IMG/VR virus record: IMGVR_UViG_3300048672_001114
Span: 1-28,478 of that record
Source: a virus
DNA: 28,478 nt
Direction: 5' to 3' (one strand)
Shown here: in pieces, positions 11,814 to 28,264 of the stretch
Layout of the letters: every line of letters starts with the position of its first letter
How positions within the stretch are numbered: the first letter of the stretch is position 1
Notes under the pieces: generated by a model
The model's input: the letters and a program-made list of their open reading frames with translations, nothing else
Told to the model about the DNA's origin: nothing
Database searches by the model: none
Translations under genes and position numbers: made by a program

Positions 11814-12359
11814 CTATTCTATTTTGTCTGTATCTTGATGTATATATTTTTTAGTACCGTCTGGGAGTGTTACCAGTTTCTTACCTGTTCTATTAGCTGA
11901 TATTTTTGCTCTTGTTTCATCCGAGATATTTCGTTTTGCTGCTGACATTTTAGCTTTTGATTCATCTGAGTGAACGTGACCTAATTTAGTAGCGGACATC
12001 TTTGCTTTGGTTTCATCCGAAACGACTTTTCCTCGTTGACCATTACCTATTTTTGCTCTGGTTTCTTCGGAGTGGGATGAATTCAACCCGCCTGTCATTA
12101 GGTTATACCCATTAGGAGCAAGAGTATTATGTTCTAATATCAGAGCTGGTTCCCAACGATTGGCTTCTTCTAATGATAGTCCTTCCATTAAGATTTCGTG
12201 TTGGAAGTTGTCCCATTCGTATTTCTTAATGGCAGAACTAAGAGCTCTACAATCAGTAGATATTTGGTGTTGCCAGCATCTTCTATCATAGTCATTGGTT
12301 TGACCAATATATGACTTACCTGAAGGACTGGTGTGTTTATAAATTAAATAATTGTCCAC
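11814..12359 (-). CDS. GIY-YIG homing endonuclease with NUMOD3 repeats (seg-like), copy 1
   Basis: About 181 residues. The GIY-YIG domain is clear: YLIYKHTSPSGKSYIGQT at the N-terminus, YDRRC with the catalytic Arg, a helix containing AIKKY.WD.F, the Glu in RWEPALI, and NGYNL closing the domain (about residue 95). The C-terminal half is four to five NUMOD3-type DNA-binding repeats (S(D/E)ETRAKxSAxxxGK). GTG (12357-12359) is taken as the start because GGAG lies 6 bases upstream of it; an in-frame TTG four codons earlier overlaps that ribosome site, and other copies have ATG at the GTG position. Acts as a site-specific DNA nickase or cutter that spreads itself between phages. Stands alone, divergent from 12433. 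Confidence 0.9.
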   Translation of the reverse strand: MDNYLIYKHTSPSGKSYIGQTNDYDRRCWQHQISTDCRALSSAIKKYEWDNFQHEILMEGLSLEEANRWEPALILEHNTLAPNGYNLMTGGLNSSHSEETRAKIGNGQRGKVVSDETKAKMSATKLGHVHSDESKAKMSAAKRNISDETRAKISANRTGKKLVTLPDGTKKYIHQDTDKIE

Positions 12360-12413
12360 AATTGACTCCAATTAAAAATTATATTATAATATAATCTATT
12401 AAATAAATCAACA
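12332..12413 (-). repeat. GIY-YIG leader repeat, copy 1 (promoter, ribosome site, first codons)
   Basis: Almost identical to 13990-14070, 16735-16812, 17600-17682 and 24517-24599. Read on the minus strand it holds TTGATT, a 17-base spacer, TATAAT (12383-12411), GGAG and the start. It contains an 18-base perfect palindrome made of TA-rich half-sites (ATTATATTA / TAATATAAT), so the -10 region could serve both directions, including the gene at 12433. Confidence 0.8.
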
Positions 12414-12849: not shown

Positions 12850-13452
12850 ATGAATACTTTACCAGTTCTGGCTCGTCATAATTTTCGTTCATTTACTGTT
12901 AATGGTTTAGTTACTGATGCTGTAGTGTATTTGGGTGAGTCTAATGATGTGTGTCACACATCCACCAAGTTAGTAAAAGAATTGGTGGATGTTCCAATTG
13001 TATTTGATGATGAAGTGTACGCCAGGATGTTCGTAAAGGCGCTGATGGTGCAGTTATTCAACCATAAATTTGATATTGATGATTTGATTGTGCCTGAATT
13101 AATTGAGGAGTGTCATCATCGTGCGTTCGCTATAACTGGTTCACCTAACTGGTCATTTTTGTATAGTGGTGAGAAAGCAGAGGTAGTGCGGGCTGTTGTT
13201 GATAAAGTGGTTCCAGTTAAAGTAATGGACCAAAAGACTGGTGCTGTGCGTATTAAGAAAGGCGGCAAACAGGTGATTGCTCGTGACTTGTTCTTGGAAC
13301 ACATTGTAAACGCTTCGGTTCCTATGGAATTCAAAGCGTTTCACAAGGTTCTGATGGAGGAAGCAGGTCTTACCAATTGTGGTGCTTCCACCTATTTGTA
13401 CAACCTCAAGACTGAATTTGGTCTAACAACTCCGCGGGCTGTGAAAAAATAG
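12850..13452 (+). CDS. Unknown protein, 200 residues
   Basis: ATG preceded by AAAGGG with a 6-base gap. The middle has a Lys/Val-rich stretch (KAEVVRAVVDKVVPVKVMDQKTGAVRIKKGGKQVIARDLF, about residues 108-148). The C-terminus (FHKVLMEEAGLTNCGASTYLYNLKTEFGL) looks like a small helical, possibly DNA-binding, unit. No family recognised. It has its own promoter at 12789. Its 3' end overlaps the convergent GIY-YIG gene by 47 bases, suggesting that the endonuclease cassette was inserted just behind it. Confidence 0.75.
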   Translation: MNTLPVLARHNFRSFTVNGLVTDAVVYLGESNDVCHTSTKLVKELVDVPIVFDDEVYARMFVKALMVQLFNHKFDIDDLIVPELIEECHHRAFAITGSPNWSFLYSGEKAEVVRAVVDKVVPVKVMDQKTGAVRIKKGGKQVIARDLFLEHIVNASVPMEFKAFHKVLMEEAGLTNCGASTYLYNLKTEFGLTTPRAVKK

Positions 13453-14017
13453 ATATTATATCGGGTGGCACGTCTAATATCTTTTTCGTTTTAGCCTTTC
13501 TGATATTATCTTTGTGCTCTTGTGTGAATACCATTCCTTTCCTACCATCTGATATTTTTTGTTTAGTTTCTGCTGATTTAGGTTTACCCTTACGGACAGC
13601 AGAAACTTTATCCTTTGTTGCTTGAGTGTGAGTCGTGCCAGTTCTAATCGCACGGATAGTTTGTTTGTGGGCTTCTGATTTGGGCTTACCTCTATTAGCT
13701 TCTGACATTTTGGTTTTAGTCTCTTCACACAATAATCGTGAAGTTCCACCAGTTTGGAGGTTATAGCCATTAGGAGCAAGTGTATTAAGTTCTTCTATCA
13801 GAAACTCTTCTAACTCGTTGGCTACTGCTAACGATAGGCCTGAATCAACGATAGTATGCGTAAAGTTGTCCCATCCGTACTTCTTAATAGCCGAGTGAAA
13901 GGCTCTACAAGCAGGTACTCTCTGGTGTTCATTACACCGTCTGTCATAATCATTAGTAAGTCCGATATAAGATTTGCCAGATGGGCTTGTGTGTTTGTAA
14001 ATTAAATAATTGTCCAC
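13406..14017 (-). CDS. GIY-YIG homing endonuclease with NUMOD3 repeats, copy 2
   Basis: About 203 residues from the GTG at 14017. The nuclease domain is intact (YLIYKHTSPSGKSYIGLT, YDRRC, ELEEFLIEELNTLAPNGYNL). The C-terminal modules have diverged further than in the other copies (SEAHKQTIRAIRTG, TQATKDKVSAVRKG, SAETKQKISDGRKG, TQEHKDNIRKAKTK), so it likely recognises a different DNA site. It then runs on about 25 residues past the modules, into the 3' end of the convergent gene at 12850-13452. Same leader repeat as the other four copies. Confidence 0.9.
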   Translation of the reverse strand: MDNYLIYKHTSPSGKSYIGLTNDYDRRCNEHQRVPACRAFHSAIKKYGWDNFTHTIVDSGLSLAVANELEEFLIEELNTLAPNGYNLQTGGTSRLLCEETKTKMSEANRGKPKSEAHKQTIRAIRTGTTHTQATKDKVSAVRKGKPKSAETKQKISDGRKGMVFTQEHKDNIRKAKTKKILDVPPDIISIFSQPAELLDQIQS

Positions 14018-14070
14018 AATTGACTCCAATTAAAAATTATATTATACTATAATCTATTAAATAAATCAAC
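13990..14070 (-). repeat. GIY-YIG leader repeat, copy 2
   Basis: Same minus-strand promoter (TTGATT-N17-TATAAT, 14041-14069), GGAG and start region as copy 1; one base breaks the palindrome seen in copy 1. Confidence 0.8.
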
Positions 14071-16164: not shown

Positions 16165-16761
16165 TCAGTAATTGTCTGATTCGTCAAGTACTTTCTTTTT
16201 ATATGGCCCACGTTTCTTTCCCATTTGATTAGCAGACATTTTCGCTCTTGTTTCATCCGAATGAGTTTTGCCTGTTCTCACAGCCGATATTTTAGCTTTA
16301 GTTTCATCGGAACTAGTGTGGCCTAATTTAGTAGCCGACATTTTCGCTCTTGTTTCTTCTGAACGAGGGTGGCCTTTCTTGCCTGTTCTGGTTTCTGACA
16401 TTTTCGCTCTTGTTTCATCCGAATGTGTTTTTCCTGTTCTGGTAGCAGATAATTTTGCTCTTGTTTCTTCTGAGGGAGATGAATTTGCTCCACCTGTAGT
16501 TAGATTATATCCATTAGGAGCTAACGTATTAAGTTCTTTAATCAGTACTTCTTCCCATCTATTGGCTTCATCTAATGATAGTCCTTCCATTAGGATTTCA
16601 TGCTGAAATTTGTCCCAGTCGTATTTCTTAATAGCAGATGCTAGTGCTCTACAATTGGTAGATATTTGGTGTTGCTGGCATCTCTTATCATAATGTTTGG
16701 TTTGACCGATATATGACTTACCAGAGGGGCTGGTATGTTTGTAGATTAAGTAATTGTCCAT
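16165..16761 (-). CDS. GIY-YIG homing endonuclease with NUMOD3 repeats, copy 3
   Basis: About 198 residues from ATG at 16759-16761. Nuclease domain YLIYKHTSPSGKSYIGQT, YDKRC, RWEEVLIKELNTLAPNGYNL, then six NUMOD3 units (S(S/D)ETRAKxSATRTGK type), the most regular array of the five copies, ending in a basic KKRGPYKKK tail shared with copy 5. The repeated units are nearly identical at DNA level, which allows copy-number change by slippage. The ATG here corresponds to the GTG in copies 1, 2 and 4 and supports that start choice. Confidence 0.9.
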   Translation of the reverse strand: MDNYLIYKHTSPSGKSYIGQTKHYDKRCQQHQISTNCRALASAIKKYDWDKFQHEILMEGLSLDEANRWEEVLIKELNTLAPNGYNLTTGGANSSPSEETRAKLSATRTGKTHSDETRAKMSETRTGKKGHPRSEETRAKMSATKLGHTSSDETKAKISAVRTGKTHSDETRAKMSANQMGKKRGPYKKKVLDESDNY

Positions 16762-16812
16762 TATTGACTCCAATTTAAAATTATATTATAATATAATCTA
16801 TTAAGTAAATCC
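16735..16812 (-). repeat. GIY-YIG leader repeat, copy 3
   Basis: Same leader as copy 1, including the 18-base TA palindrome; the -35 side has drifted (TGGATT instead of TTGATT). Confidence 0.75.
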
Positions 16813-17106: not shown

Positions 17107-17628
17107 TTAACGATACTCATTATCGAGTTCGGTTGGTCTACGCTTTTTCCCTTGTTTGGCAGCAGACATTTTTGCTCTGGTTTCATCAGATATATTTTGT
17201 TTGGCTGCCCTCATTTTAGCTTTTGTGTCTTCTGTATGAGGTCCTTGTTTCTTGCCTAAATGAGCAATAGACATTTTAGCTTTTGTTTCAACTGACATAT
17301 TTCGTTTGGCGGTAGTCATTTTAGCTTTGGTTTCTTCCGATAGGCGCGAATTTAATCCACCGGTGTTTAAATTATACCCATTAGGAGCTAATGTATTAAG
17401 TTCTTTAATCAGAACTTCTTCCCATCGGTTGGCCTCATCTAATGATAGGCCTTCTATTAAGAGTTCATGTTGGAACGAATCCCACCCGTATTTCTTAATA
17501 GCTCGTGATAGGTATCTACAATCAGTAGATGACTGGTGTTCTCTACACCTCCTATCGTAATTATTGGTTTGTCCAATATAAGATTTGCCCGAAGGGCTTG
17601 TGTGTTTATAAATTAAATAATTGTCCAC
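17107..17628 (-). CDS. GIY-YIG homing endonuclease with NUMOD3 repeats, copy 4
   Basis: About 173 residues from GTG at 17628. Nuclease domain YLIYKHTSPSGKSYIGQT, YDRRC, RWEEVLIKELNTLAPNGYNL, followed by five shorter NUMOD3-like units (SEETKAKMTTAKRN, SVETKAKMSIAHLG, TEDTKAKMRAAKQN, SDETRAKMSAAKQG). It is the shortest of the five copies. Flanked by two small unknown genes. Confidence 0.9.
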   Translation of the reverse strand: MDNYLIYKHTSPSGKSYIGQTNNYDRRCREHQSSTDCRYLSRAIKKYGWDSFQHELLIEGLSLDEANRWEEVLIKELNTLAPNGYNLNTGGLNSRLSEETKAKMTTAKRNMSVETKAKMSIAHLGKKQGPHTEDTKAKMRAAKQNISDETRAKMSAAKQGKKRRPTELDNEYR

Positions 17629-17682
17629 AATTGACTCCAATTAAAAATTATATTATACTATAATCTATTAAATAAATCAACA
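17600..17682 (-). repeat. GIY-YIG leader repeat, copy 4
   Basis: Same promoter, ribosome site and first codons as copy 1, with the same one-base palindrome change as copy 2. Confidence 0.8.
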
Positions 17683-23902: not shown

Positions 23903-23907
23903 CTAAG

Positions 23908-23992
23908 AATAGGTATTGATGCGATAGCTGGTGGTTACTTCTAATTTTAAACGAAACCAACACCTCTGGCAAATTTAATCTCAGTACCTATT
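23908..23992 (+). ncRNA. Two-helix RNA element, copy 1 (no tRNA insert)
   Basis: P1: 23908-23918 with 23982-23992 (11 bp). Then ATGCGATA; P2: GCTGGTGG (23927-23934) with CCTCTGGC (23963-23970), one T-T mismatch. P2 is followed by TTACTTC, and its return strand is preceded by CGAAACCAACA; the closing strand before P1 ends TTTAATCT. All single-strand motifs recur in the other three copies while helix sequences differ. The P2 loop has 28 bases and no tRNA. It begins 5 bases after the Gly-like sequence. Confidence 0.7.
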
Positions 23993-24545
23993 TTACTTTC
24001 TTTTTATATGGCCCGCGTTTCTTTCCCATTTGGGCAGCAGATATTTTAGCTTTAGTTTCGTCAGACTTATTTTGTTGAGCAGCGGACATTTTCGCTTTTG
24101 TTTCTTCAGACTTTGGTATTCCTAGGCGAGCAGCAGATATTTTAGCTTTAGTTTCATCTGAAACGTTTTGTTTAGCAGCAGACATTTTTGCCTTGGTTTC
24201 GTCTGTATGGGTGGTTCCCAGTTTAGCAGCGGACATCGCTGCTTTTGTTTCTTCGGATAGACTAGAATTGAATCCACCTGTTCGTAAATTATATCCATTA
24301 GGAGCCAACGTATTATGCTCTGATATGAAAAATGGTTCCCAATGATTAGCCTCTTCTAACGACAATCCCTCTATTAATATTTCGTGAGTAAAGTTATCCC
24401 ATCCGTGTTTCTGGATAGCAGATTTAAATACTCTACATCCAGTAGATGTTTGGTGCTCGAAACATCTCCTGTCATAATCTTTGGTTTGGCCGATATATGA
24501 CTTACCCGAAGGACTTGTATGTTTGTAAATTAAATAATTATCCAT
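23988..24545 (-). CDS. GIY-YIG homing endonuclease with NUMOD3 repeats, copy 5
   Basis: About 185 residues from ATG at 24545. Nuclease domain YLIYKHTSPSGKSYIGQT, YDRRC, HWEPFFISEHNTLAPNGYNL, then about six NUMOD3 units (S(D/E)ETKAKxSAAxxG) and the KKRGPYKKK tail shared with copy 3. It sits inside the tRNA cluster on the opposite strand. Its 3' end overlaps the last 5 bases of the RNA element at 23908-23992. Confidence 0.9.
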   Translation of the reverse strand: MDNYLIYKHTSPSGKSYIGQTKDYDRRCFEHQTSTGCRVFKSAIQKHGWDNFTHEILIEGLSLEEANHWEPFFISEHNTLAPNGYNLRTGGFNSSLSEETKAAMSAAKLGTTHTDETKAKMSAAKQNVSDETKAKISAARLGIPKSEETKAKMSAAQQNKSDETKAKISAAQMGKKRGPYKKKVK

Positions 24546-24599
24546 TGTTGACTCCAATTTAAAATCGTATTATAATATAATCCATTAAATAAATCAACT
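24517..24599 (-). repeat. GIY-YIG leader repeat, copy 5
   Basis: Same promoter and ribosome-site cassette as copies 1-4, with a few substitutions, directly upstream (minus strand) of GIY-YIG copy 5. Confidence 0.75.
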
Positions 24600-24628: not shown

Positions 24629-24645
24629 ACACATAAATAAAGAAT

Positions 24646-24728
24646 TACTCCTGATAATCTGGTGGATTCGTCGAAGGGAATTTTAAGCCTCCTGGTCGAT
24701 TAGATCGGTTCGATTCCGGTAGGAGTAA
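24646..24728 (+). tRNA. tRNA-Leu (TAA)-like, irregular anticodon arm
   Basis: Acceptor TACTCCT/AGGAGTA (7 bp) and T-arm ATCGG-TTCGATT-CCGGT are good, and a long variable region suggests class II. The anticodon stem pairs only four outer bases (AGGG with TCCT), leaving a loop of about 11 bases containing TTTTAAG, so TAA is a likely but not certain anticodon. Positions 8-9 are GA instead of TA/TG. CCA is not encoded. Confidence 0.65.
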
Positions 24729-24729
24729 C

Positions 24730-24809
24730 AAAAAGTATTGTTGCGATATTGATCGGTTACTTCATTGGCGAAACTAACACCGATTGAGACTTATACCTCA
24801 GTACTTTTT
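24730..24809 (+). ncRNA. Two-helix RNA element, copy 2 (no tRNA insert)
   Basis: P1: AAAAAGTATTG (24730) with CAGTACTTTTT (24799), 11 bp. TTGCGATA, then P2: TTGATCGG (24749-24756) with CCGATTGA (24780-24787), 8 of 8 pairs. TTACTTCAT begins the 23-base loop, and CGAAACTAACA ends it. Closing strand GACTTATACCT. It fits exactly between tRNA-Leu (ends 24728) and tRNA-Asn (starts 24811). The T run at the P1 end could also terminate transcription weakly. Confidence 0.7.
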
Positions 24810-24810
24810 T

Positions 24811-24882
24811 TCCATCTAACGCACTAGGTGTGCGGCCGAGCTGTTAACTCGTGTGAGTCTCGTTCGAATCGAGAAGATGGAG
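24811..24882 (+). tRNA. tRNA-Asn (GTT)
   Basis: Acceptor TCCATCT/AGATGGA, D-stem CGCA/TGCG, anticodon stem CCGAG/CTCGT (outermost pair mismatched) with loop CTGTTAA, T-arm TCTCG-TTCGAAT-CGAGA. Positions 8-9 are AA. CCA not encoded. Confidence 0.88.
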
Positions 24883-24885
24883 CTA

Positions 24886-25030
24886 AGTGATCATTGCGTA
24901 GTGTAGACTTACTTCATTAGGAACCGTCGGTCGTGGGTTCGAATCCCACTCTTCCCCATCAATGGGAAGATAGCTCAGTCTGGTAGAGTGGTGGTAAAAA
25001 AAGCGTTTATGCGAATTAATCTTGATCATT
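24886..25030 (+). ncRNA. Two-helix RNA element, copy 3, carrying a permuted tRNA
   Basis: P1: AGTGATCA (24886-24893) with TGATCATT (25023-25030), 8 pairs. TTGCGTA, then P2: GTGTAGAC (24901-24908) with GTTTATGC (25005-25012), 8 pairs including G-T. TTACTTCAT follows P2; AAAAAAAGC precedes the return strand; closing strand GAATTAATCT. The same arrangement and motifs as copies 1 and 2, but the P2 loop contains 24918-24995, a circularly permuted tRNA. Confidence 0.72.
24918..24995 (+). tRNA. Circularly permuted tRNA gene (3' half before 5' half)
   Basis: 3' half first: anticodon 3' strand ACCGT (24923-24927), variable CGGTC, T-arm GTGGG-TTCGAAT-CCCAC, acceptor TCTTCCC (24950-24956). Then a 7-base linker and the 5' half: acceptor GGGAAGA (24964-24970), TA, D-arm GCTC..GGTA-GAGT, anticodon 5' strand GTGGT (24991-24995). 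Acceptor pairs 7 of 7; the anticodon stem pairs 5 of 5 with two G-T. The open ends are in the anticodon loop. If the upstream ATTAGGA (24916-24922) fills the loop, the anticodon would read TAG, but the junction is unknown and the short variable loop does not suit tRNA-Leu. Amino-acid identity open. Confidence 0.75.
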
Positions 25031-25108
25031 TTATAGTCTTATGTGCCATGTGTACAAAAAGCAGACGGGTCCGTATTAACTATGTGCGGGTCCAGGAGTA
25101 GTTAAAAG

Positions 25109-25238
25109 AAACAATTATTGCGAAGATTGGTGTTACTTCATAATCCACGCTGGAGGTTCTCGTTCGATTCGAGATTAATAGTGTATTGGTCGCACGCTTG
25201 CCTTAATAAGCCACTAATCGATATTATCTTAATTGTTT
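25109..25238 (+). ncRNA. Two-helix RNA element, copy 4, carrying a degenerate tRNA insert
   Basis: P1: AAACAATTA (25109-25117) with TAATTGTTT (25230-25238), 9 of 9. TTGCGAA, then P2: GATTGGTG (25125-25132) with CACTAATC (25212-25219), 8 pairs with one G-T. TTACTTCAT follows; TTAATAAGC precedes the return strand; closing strand GATATTATCT. It ends 6 bases before tRNA-Tyr. The 78 bases between copies 3 and 4 (25031-25108) contain duplicated short motifs (TATGTGC and CGGGTCC, twice each) but no clear gene. Confidence 0.7.
25142..25202 (+). tRNA. Degenerate permuted tRNA-like insert
   Basis: Inside copy 4 of the element. It holds a good T-arm (TCTCG-TTCGATT-CGAGA, 25158-25174), followed by ATTAATA and TATTGGT, which pair 7 of 7 across a 3-base linker, as a permuted acceptor stem would. 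The expected D-arm is missing or reduced to GCA-CGCT-TGC, and no anticodon stem is found. Probably a decayed or minimal version of the permuted tRNA in copy 3. Confidence 0.45.
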
Positions 25239-25244
25239 TATTTT

Positions 25245-25327
25245 GGTGTCGTATGCAGTTAAGGAGACTGCTTGGTCTGTAAAACCACCGCCTTCGGGCT
25301 CGCTGAGATCGTTACTCAGAGGCACCA
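25245..25327 (+). tRNA. tRNA-Tyr (GTA)
   Basis: Class II tRNA: acceptor GGTGTC paired with GGCACC, D-stem GCAG/CTGC, anticodon loop CTGTAAA on TGGT/ACCA, a long variable arm of about 15 bases, T-stem CTGAG/CTCAG with loop ATCGTTA. CCA not encoded. Confidence 0.85.
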
Positions 25328-25341
25328 CAAATTTATACAAT

Positions 25342-25379
25342 GCCGGATGATTCACTGTTATATCGCAGTGCCGGCTCCA
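25342..25379 (+). tRNA. Acceptor/T-arm minihelix ending in CCA
   Basis: GCCGG (25342-25346) pairs with CCGGC (25371-25375), and CACTG/CAGTG (25353-25370) forms a hairpin stacked directly on it with loop TTATATCG. It ends TCCA. This is what remains of a tRNA if the D and anticodon arms are deleted and six bases join the parts. It may be a tRNA remnant or a processed tRNA mimic. Confidence 0.4.
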
Positions 25380-25385
25380 ATTAAC

Positions 25386-25992: not shown

Positions 25993-26066
25993 GGGGTGAA
26001 TGGTTTAAATGGGAAAACGTGGTGGGTAAAGCTTCCAAGATTGAGATTCGAGTTCTCATCACTCCT
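25993..26066 (+). tRNA. tRNA-like sequence with abnormal anticodon arm
   Basis: Acceptor GGGGTGA/TCACTCC (7 pairs with one G-T), D-stem GTTT/AAAC with GGG in the loop, T-arm TGAGA-TTCGAGT-TCTCA. The anticodon arm is poor: the best fold pairs TGGTGG with CTTCCA (one T-T mismatch), leaving a six-base loop GTAAAG, and three bases instead of two join the acceptor and D-stems. Identity unclear. It starts directly after the preceding gene. Confidence 0.5.
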
Positions 26067-26096
26067 CTAATGGTTAAGTAATTTTTTTATACCTCA

Positions 26097-26447: not shown

Positions 26448-26521
26448 AGCGAGTTCTAATTCTGGTGAGTTACCAAGTCTCATAAGCTTGTGCAGGTGGG
26501 TTCGATTCCTCACACTCGCTT
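26448..26521 (+). tRNA. tRNA with CAT anticodon (Met or Ile2), second copy
   Basis: Acceptor AGCGAGT/ACTCGCT, anticodon stem CAAGT/GCTTG with loop CTCATAA. The D-arm is weak (TAA/TTA around TTCTGGTGAG). The T-stem has a bulged T on the 3' side (GTGGG against CCTCAC). CCA not encoded. Clearly different from the CAT tRNA at 25467, so the two probably have different identities. Confidence 0.82.
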
Positions 26522-27237: not shown

Positions 27238-27268
27238 GACCCTATCGTCCAGTGGTTAGGATATCGCA
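27238..27268 (+). tRNA. 5' half of a split Glu-type tRNA
   Basis: GACCCTA acceptor strand, TC, D-arm GTCC-AGTGGTTA-GGAT, A, anticodon 5' strand TCGCA (27264-27268). The TCGTC..AGTGGTTAGGA core is typical of tRNA-Glu. No partner follows. The matching anticodon 3' strand TGCGA occurs 880 bases later at 28150, on the far side of an endonuclease gene. Confidence 0.65.
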
Positions 27269-27281
27269 ATTTGATCATTAG

Positions 27282-27370
27282 CCTTGATTTGGTGAGGTTG
27301 AGCCTCAGTTGGCTCACTAATAAGGACAACCAAATCAAGGTGTATTTGTGGGTTCGATTCATAAATACAC
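27282..27370 (+). ncRNA. Two stacked hairpins between the tRNA 5' half and the endonuclease gene
   Basis: CCTTGATTTGGT (27282-27293) pairs perfectly with ACCAAATCAAGG (27329-27340), enclosing a TGAGCC/GGCTCA hairpin. Immediately after, GTGTATTTGTG (27340-27350) pairs with CATAAATACAC (27360-27370), one G-T, around GGTTCGATT, which looks like a T-loop. This second hairpin resembles a fused acceptor/T-arm. It may be the 5' part of an intron, or tRNA debris. Confidence 0.5.
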
Positions 27371-27389
27371 AACAATAACAAGGATGGTT

Positions 27390-28157
27390 ATGAAAAGTTG
27401 TCCAAAGTGTGAAACTCAACACAGTAAATCCGGAATATTCTGTTCCAGAAAATGTGCTAATAGTAGAACGTTCTCTATTGGCACTAAAGAGAAAAAGAGG
27501 GAAAAAGCCATCGAGAGTAGATTACGACGTGGTTTGCCTCTTGGTAAGACTGTAATAGAAAAAGAATGTATAATCTGTAAATCAATCCATACTTTGGTCG
27601 GAAAAACTTGTAGTAGAGAATGTAAGAGGTTATATCAATCACGAGGACAAAAGGAACGAAAGGCTGGCGGCTATAGAGAAGGGTCTGGTAGATCGAATTC
27701 AGGATATTATAAAGAAATTTTTTGTGGTTCCACGTATGAGTTGATTTGGGTAATATACAGATTGGATCGTAATTTATTAGTTAAAAGATTTAAAGGATAC
27801 CTGTCAAATGAAATATTAAAATATTATCCAGATTTTATAGAAAATAATCACATTTTCGAGATTAAAGGTTATTGGACTGATTCCGTTGATAAAAAGACGG
27901 AACTAGCGAAAGAAAATGGATATACTATTTCAGTATTATACAAACAAGATTTGGAAAAAGAATTTGATTGGGTCAAAACTAAGTATAAGTATAAACACAT
28001 AACAGAACTATATGATAATTATAAACCATCATATACTTTTAATTGTGAATATTGTGGACATGTATTTAATACTGAAATAAAAAAAGAAACAGATGTTGTT
28101 TTCTGCTCAAGACGCTGTGCTGGATTGGGACATAAAGGGAGAAAACAACTGCGATAA
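27390..28157 (+). CDS. Zinc-finger PD-(D/E)XK-type homing endonuclease inside split tRNA
   Basis: 255 residues from ATG 27390 (MKSCPKCETQHS), chosen because AAGGA lies 5 bases upstream. The N-terminus has two Cys pairs plus FCSRKCAN, and a second set (CIICKSI..CSRECKRLY); the C-terminus has another zinc ribbon (CEYCGHVF, FCSRRCAG). Between them, CGSTYELIWVIYRLD, YYPDFI and HIFEIKGYW give the Asp and Glu-x-Lys of a PD-(D/E)XK fold. This layout is familiar in phage homing endonucleases. The reading frame runs into the 3' half of a tRNA (stop 28155-28157), so gene and tRNA share bases, typical of intron or insertion homing. Confidence 0.82.
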   Translation: MKSCPKCETQHSKSGIFCSRKCANSRTFSIGTKEKKREKAIESRLRRGLPLGKTVIEKECIICKSIHTLVGKTCSRECKRLYQSRGQKERKAGGYREGSGRSNSGYYKEIFCGSTYELIWVIYRLDRNLLVKRFKGYLSNEILKYYPDFIENNHIFEIKGYWTDSVDKKTELAKENGYTISVLYKQDLEKEFDWVKTKYKYKHITELYDNYKPSYTFNCEYCGHVFNTEIKKETDVVFCSRRCAGLGHKGRKQLR

Positions 28158-28186
28158 CGCCGGTTCGAACCCGGCTGGTGATGCCA
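28150..28186 (+). tRNA. 3' half of a split Glu-type tRNA
   Basis: TGCGA (pairs 5 of 5 with TCGCA at 27264), variable TAAC, T-arm GCCGG-TTCGAAC-CCGGC, acceptor strand TGGTGAT, discriminator G and encoded CCA. The acceptor strand pairs only 5 of 7 with GACCCTA (A-A and C-T mismatches), so either the acceptor has drifted or this half came from another tRNA. No better 5' partner is present in the window. Confidence 0.6.
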
Positions 28187-28192
28187 ATTAAT

Positions 28193-28264
28193 AGGTCAGT
28201 AGCTTAATTAAAGCGAGACGGATCAGCTAGACAGATATAGGTTAAACTCCTATCTGGCCTGCCA
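28193..28264 (+). tRNA. tRNA-like sequence lacking a normal anticodon arm
   Basis: Acceptor AGGTCAG/CTGGCCT (7 pairs with one G-T), TA, D-stem GCTT/AAGC with a five-base loop lacking GG, T-arm ATAGG-TTAAACT-CCTAT, discriminator G and CCA. The 22 bases between D- and T-arms have about the right length but give no anticodon stem better than ATC/GAT. Identity cannot be assigned. Confidence 0.5.

Follow-up and report, generated by a model that had tools for sequence, protein, structure and literature searches.

The window analysed here, a stretch of 28,478 nucleotides from a viral contig (IMG/VR record IMGVR_UViG_3300048672_001114), contains a tRNA-Glu gene in two halves, at 27238-27272 and 28150-28186 on the plus strand, with the gene of an endonuclease between them.

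The split tRNA-Glu gene and the endonuclease within it

The 5' half is of the native type and comprises the acceptor strand GACCCTA (27238-27244), a fully paired D-arm (GTCC/GGAT, 4/4, 27247-27262), the anticodon-stem strand TCGCA (27264-27268) and the first bases of the loop, ATTT, up to 27272. The 3' half starts with the opposing anticodon-stem strand TGCGA (28150-28154) and continues with the variable region TAAC, the T-arm GCCGG-TTCGAAC-CCGGC (5/5 Watson-Crick), the acceptor strand TGGTGAT, a G and the CCA that ends at 28186. A preliminary description of this DNA had proposed that both halves are of Glu type and that the break falls in the anticodon loop, and a direct reading agrees on both counts, the Glu type being visible in the D-arm TCGTCCAGTGGTTAGGAT, the variable TAAC and G73-CCA. 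The anticodon stem pairs 5/5 across the halves, as that description had counted, and 7 pairs form with the extension (TATCGCA/TGCGATA). Its doubt about the acceptor was also well placed, as 5/7 positions pair, three by Watson-Crick and two by G-U, and the mismatches are A-A and C-U. A D-arm of the consensus sequence is found a single time in the 28.5 kb when both strands are considered, and the six perfect T-arms of the window are all on the plus strand and all within the tRNA array. ARAGORN recognised no tRNA in the split gene, nor in any of the joined versions or junctions that we tried.

The endonuclease gene (27390-28157, plus strand) begins with the ATG at 27390, 5 nt downstream of a likely ribosome-binding site, AAGGA (27380-27384), and encodes 255 amino acids with Cys-rich ends. 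Between 27273 and the stop codon the insert is nearly all reading frame, with a leader of ~120 nt preceding the intact ORF, and the stop codon TAA (28155-28157) lies inside the 3' half of the tRNA, into which the frame had been said to run. The catalytic motif E..PD..ExK (E117, P147-D148, E157-x-K159) is intact and invariant among 15 aligned members of the family. Structure prediction yields a restriction-endonuclease-like core, with pLDDT mostly >90 in the core and a pTM of 0.52, whose nearest folds are TnsA (Z 7.2), the catalytic domain of I-Bth0305I (Z 5.6, rmsd 3.7, 78 residues) and Vsr (Z 4.5). As the Z scores alone are middling, it is motif and fold together that point to a PD-(D/E)XK enzyme, in line with the PD-(D/E)XK zinc-finger endonuclease of the preliminary description, the Cys-rich stretches being zinc-finger-like. 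The EDxHD motif of the I-Bth0305I type is not present in the window enzyme, and no sequence in the PDB matches it.

Other elements of the window deserve mention in their own right. The Rfam family YrlA (Y RNA-like) matches 24925-24993 (wider, 24885-25045) at a sub-gathering score of 40 bits; with its T-arm, acceptor and D-arm order and a closing outer stem this element is a possible phage Y RNA, a better reading than that of a permuted tRNA, which we rejected. The elements at 23905-23996, 24730-24812 and 25095-25250 have a TTACTTC-type stretch in common and may be further Y RNA-like RNAs, and two of them also share TGCGATA..CGAAAC..AACACC with closing stems. Five paralogous GIY-YIG-like ORFs (11814-12371, 13406-14029, 16165-16773, 17107-17640, 23988-24557 (minus strand)) are scattered over the contig, start with MES..DNYLIYKHTSPSGKSYIG and have repetitive tails. 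Several degenerate tRNAs, for which ARAGORN at default settings gave a poor call or none, are found at 24640-24731, 25243-25330, 25993-26067, 26448-26520 and 28193-28261, and a minihelix-like remnant at 25343-25380 consists of an acceptor and a T-arm-like hairpin ending in CCA, without D-arm or anticodon arm. The inverted repeat 27230-27246/27966-27982 was dismissed as a chance match on a rough estimate that took length and composition into account, and the frequency of TGATCATT near tRNA junctions is at chance level.

A family of endonucleases at tRNA-Glu loci

Protein-based searches with the endonuclease (P0001) alone or with the protein at 744-1784 returned no close relatives, and blastn gave no useful phage relatives of the window; an alignment was needed, and with it a search of virus contigs recovered more than 100 relatives, 110 distinct copies once duplicates were removed. 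A search of the genome collection returned just two distant relatives. Of 106 loci, 59 have a tRNA-Glu at most 100 nt away, and Ser, second among the isotypes, is found at 13, which suggests that the window endonuclease belongs to a family targeting tRNA-Glu.

The gene order in close relatives is a tRNA-Glu 5' half, the leader, the endonuclease, and a complete tRNA-Glu of different sequence that overlaps or abuts the stop codon; a 5' relic similar to that of the window precedes the endonuclease in many relatives. Several close relatives also contain the 3' half of the first, native tRNA-Glu, downstream of the complete one, and in L006, L026, L068, L105, L106, L121 and L144 these outer native halves flank the endonuclease with its complete tRNA-Glu and pair 7/7 in the acceptor (GCACCGT/ACGGTGT in L006). 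L096, in which native halves flank a naked endonuclease, has the layout of the window itself; the complete replacement tRNA, present in relatives such as L006, L026 and L106, is absent in these two. An intact tRNA-Glu at the empty site in close relatives, which the preliminary description had named, next to the lack of a spliced product, as what would refute its reading and show simple gene disruption, was obtained for L006/L008 and not for the window. The native tRNA-Glu of L006/L008 is uninterrupted in L084, L086 and L087, where the insertion is absent from the homologous site: the first 25 nt of the intact gene in all three are identical to the relic of L008, and the T-arm and acceptor of L086 to the 3' relic of L006. 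For the window's own tRNA-Glu, neither an exact match to its 5' half nor a relative with an empty site was found.

In tRNA-Glu genes 15 nt separate TTCA, made up of the anticodon and A37, from the TTCRA of the T-loop, which gives the pattern TTCA-N15-TTCRA. This pattern is intact in 21 of the 65 tRNA-Glu genes beside an endonuclease as compared to 102 of 118 in the background (p = 1.3e-13), and after clustering in 15/47 versus 38/52 (p = 5e-5), the background having been fetched via the D-arm consensus, which favours regular tRNAs. An unselected though cruder check is provided by the non-Glu tRNAs of the same loci, 593 of 684 of which keep the TTCRA T-loop. The pattern is lost through T-loops altered to ATCGT/ATCGA, GTCGG or GGCAG, through a longer variable region, or through a change of A37 to T, C or G, and on the tree of the enzymes the state of the site changes at least 15 times. 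The replacement-type tRNA-Glu genes of L012 and L036 have long variable regions (spacing 23 and ~31, respectively) that are unusual for Glu.

A tRNA-Glu look-alike in the endonuclease leader

The two long hairpins noticed earlier at 27282-27370 withstand statistical scrutiny (z = -4.3). Hairpin 1 (27282-27340, plus strand; CCTTGATTTGGT/ACCAAATCAAGG, 12 bp, with an inner hairpin) belongs to the window's leader only and was absent from those of the relatives. Hairpin 2 (27340-27370, plus strand, 14 bp) has a T-loop-like loop, and its 3' arm contains CATAAATAC (27360-27368), a T4-type late-promoter-like box that has a TAAATA-type counterpart at the same place in relatives. Together with this box, a sequence that mimics the spacing between anticodon loop and T-loop of tRNA-Glu, ATCA-N15-TTCGA (27334-27357, plus strand), lies in or touches hairpin 2, a hairpin that is the endonuclease leader and combines a tRNA-like site with a late-promoter-like box.

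The motif [AT]TCA-N15-TTCRA, at a spacing of exactly 15 nt, is present in 22 of 110 leaders, nearly always as ATCA, as compared to 0.3 in shuffled leaders; among these, L109 at least lies in coding sequence, probably by chance. Other spacings are represented 0-2 times each, except for six at 16. In the leaders of the family the mimic abuts a TAAATA-type late promoter box. The mimic is reversed in nine leaders, and where a tRNA-Glu is found within 300 nt the two orientations agree, forward mimics going with a sense tRNA (14/14) and reversed mimics with an antisense tRNA (6/6).

I-TevI, encoded in the td intron of T4, binds a look-alike of its homing site, scarcely cleaves it and in this way represses its own late promoter (PMC2988022). 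The same arrangement, a homing-site look-alike adjoining the late promoter of an endonuclease, is present in the window at 27334-27368, although I-TevI is an intron-encoded GIY-YIG enzyme and the mimic of the window and its family copies a tRNA gene, with repression putative. The steady change from TTCA to ATCA fits a look-alike that is left uncut, and by analogy with I-TevI we propose that the site serves as operator and that the enzyme probably represses its own gene through it. Truncated endonucleases, devoid of the N-terminal Cys-rich part, have no leader mimic and several of them are found beside a tRNA-Glu with an intact pattern, indicating that recognition is not uniform across the family; these enzymes may recognise a different block, possibly the D-arm.

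Origin of the split and a proposed home-and-rescue reading

We propose that a phage tRNA-Glu gene received, in its anticodon loop, a free-standing PD-(D/E)XK homing endonuclease gene. The enzyme would recognise what is common to every tRNA-Glu gene, TTCA in the anticodon loop and TTCRA in the T-loop at a distance of 15 bp, cut the gene at this pattern and then copy itself in. The complete second tRNA-Glu that many copies bring along has the pattern broken, by a change of T54, of A37 or of the spacing, and as the pattern is broken the host phage would keep a working tRNA-Glu that the enzyme is predicted not to cut. The element of the family would hence be a natural home-and-rescue element. The window copy appears to be a naked insertion, and as it comes without a replacement tRNA the split tRNA-Glu is most likely disrupted and non-functional. 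Taken as a whole, from homing into tRNA-Glu and rescue in the family to autorepression through the mimic and loss of the tRNA in the window, we consider this reading probable.

Whether the two halves of the window were once partners is a separate matter. The anticodon stem favours true partners, the acceptor argues against them, and on account of the mismatches in the latter the halves may not be the original pair. Among random halves drawn from 125 different tRNA-Glu genes, an acceptor pairing at 5/7 or better arises in ~30% of unrelated pairs. It is conceivable, and we hold it tentatively as a real possibility, that the 3' half is the remnant of a replacement tRNA-Glu that lost its 5' half by deletion, that the upstream half is a native relic, and that the two never were partners. 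The 3' half occupies the exact place of the replacement tRNA of the relatives, overlapping the endonuclease stop; its acceptor strand does not match that of the 5' half, and the replacement tRNA of the near relative L004 has an identical TCGCA/TGCGA stem. However, a 5/5 anticodon stem is found in just 5.9% of the unrelated half pairs (1.4% if Watson-Crick only), L096 is a naked insertion whose native halves do match, and the T-loop of the window's 3' half is the unmodified TTCGAAC.

We regard it as unlikely that both halves are native and that the distal acceptor strand was swapped by recombination in the T-arm with another tRNA, leaving a hybrid. All stems are perfect except the acceptor, where 2/7 pairs fail, and the tRNA array has GIY-YIG genes within it and nearby; SegB, a free-standing GIY-YIG homing endonuclease of the T4/T6 tRNA cluster, has the reported motif RAWTSGAAC, a T-arm sequence that corresponds to the complement of the T-arm (PMC13096335), and tRNA-cutting enzymes of this kind cut at T-arm-like motifs, yet no donor tRNA carrying TGGTGAT was found in the window. 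Like SegB, the window enzyme is a free-standing phage endonuclease that lives in tRNA genes and presumably acts on them; it differs in its nuclease fold, and SegB is intergenic and not described with a replacement tRNA or between the halves of its target.

A self-splicing intron, of group I, group II or an unknown kind, with the endonuclease as passenger and splicing to restore the tRNA, is very improbable. Such an intron had been expected in the preliminary description, which itself saw no standard group I core. The core's absence was confirmed and the expectation was not, as covariance models for group I and II introns gave no Rfam match in the window (cmscan, gathering score and E<=10) and the loci of L006, L068, L096 and L106, at gathering score, yielded nothing but tRNA matches; the endonuclease gene is accordingly outside any detectable self-splicing intron at these loci, and for want of Rfam support the self-splicing intron was rejected. 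In its favour, the break follows a U of the anticodon loop, the usual place of group I introns in tRNAs, the anticodon stem is paired, and PD-(D/E)XK enzymes do occur in tRNA introns, I-Ssp6803I residing in one of group I. Against this, the ~120 nt beside the ORF leave no space for a ribozyme core, the acceptor is poorly paired, the joined tRNA escapes ARAGORN, and related enzymes are free-standing beside complete tRNA-Glu genes. I-Ssp6803I and I-Bth0305I are PD-(D/E)XK-fold homing endonucleases whose restriction-endonuclease-like fold the window enzyme may share; the former differs in its intron home, no intron being detectable in the window.

Hardly credible is a tRNA in pieces, in which the halves of the window and of L096 would be cut from one transcript, held by the anticodon stem and sealed, a phage RNA ligase being one candidate, into a functional tRNA with the endonuclease gene as the removed piece: the stems are kept (5/5 in the window, GTAGG/CCTAC in L096) and the split nrdA of phage Aeh1 functions in pieces (PMC2988022), but the window's acceptor pairs 5/7, neither a processing signal nor a ligase was recognised in this fragment, and a recent insertion accounts for intact stems. 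MobE, which splits nrdA, resembles the window enzyme as a free-standing endonuclease inside its target gene that leaves two halves (PMC2988022), whereas its target is a protein gene that still works and ours is a tRNA of which other members supply a whole replacement copy.

Returning to the home-and-rescue reading, no open-licence paper was found that describes a tRNA-Glu housing an endonuclease and accompanied by a spare tRNA, and what is new and testable in this reading is that members of the family carry altered replacement tRNAs. HomeR (home-and-rescue) is reportedly an engineered Cas9 gene drive in flies that inserts in its target and carries an uncuttable replacement. The phage element would likewise insert into its target and carry a replacement predicted to be uncuttable, unlike HomeR as a natural family deduced from sequence, with a window copy that lacks the rescue. 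If this reading of the family is true, phages would have evolved unaided the engineers' design, in which a cutter sits in an indispensable gene and brings an uncuttable version of that gene with it, the recognition rule would be readable from sequence as TTCA-N15-TTCRA, and a tRNA look-alike is predicted to act as a gene switch. The family would also hold a natural record of immunity mutations at tRNA positions that are otherwise near-universal, T54 and A37, and would bear on the cause of the strange T-loops in some phage tRNAs.
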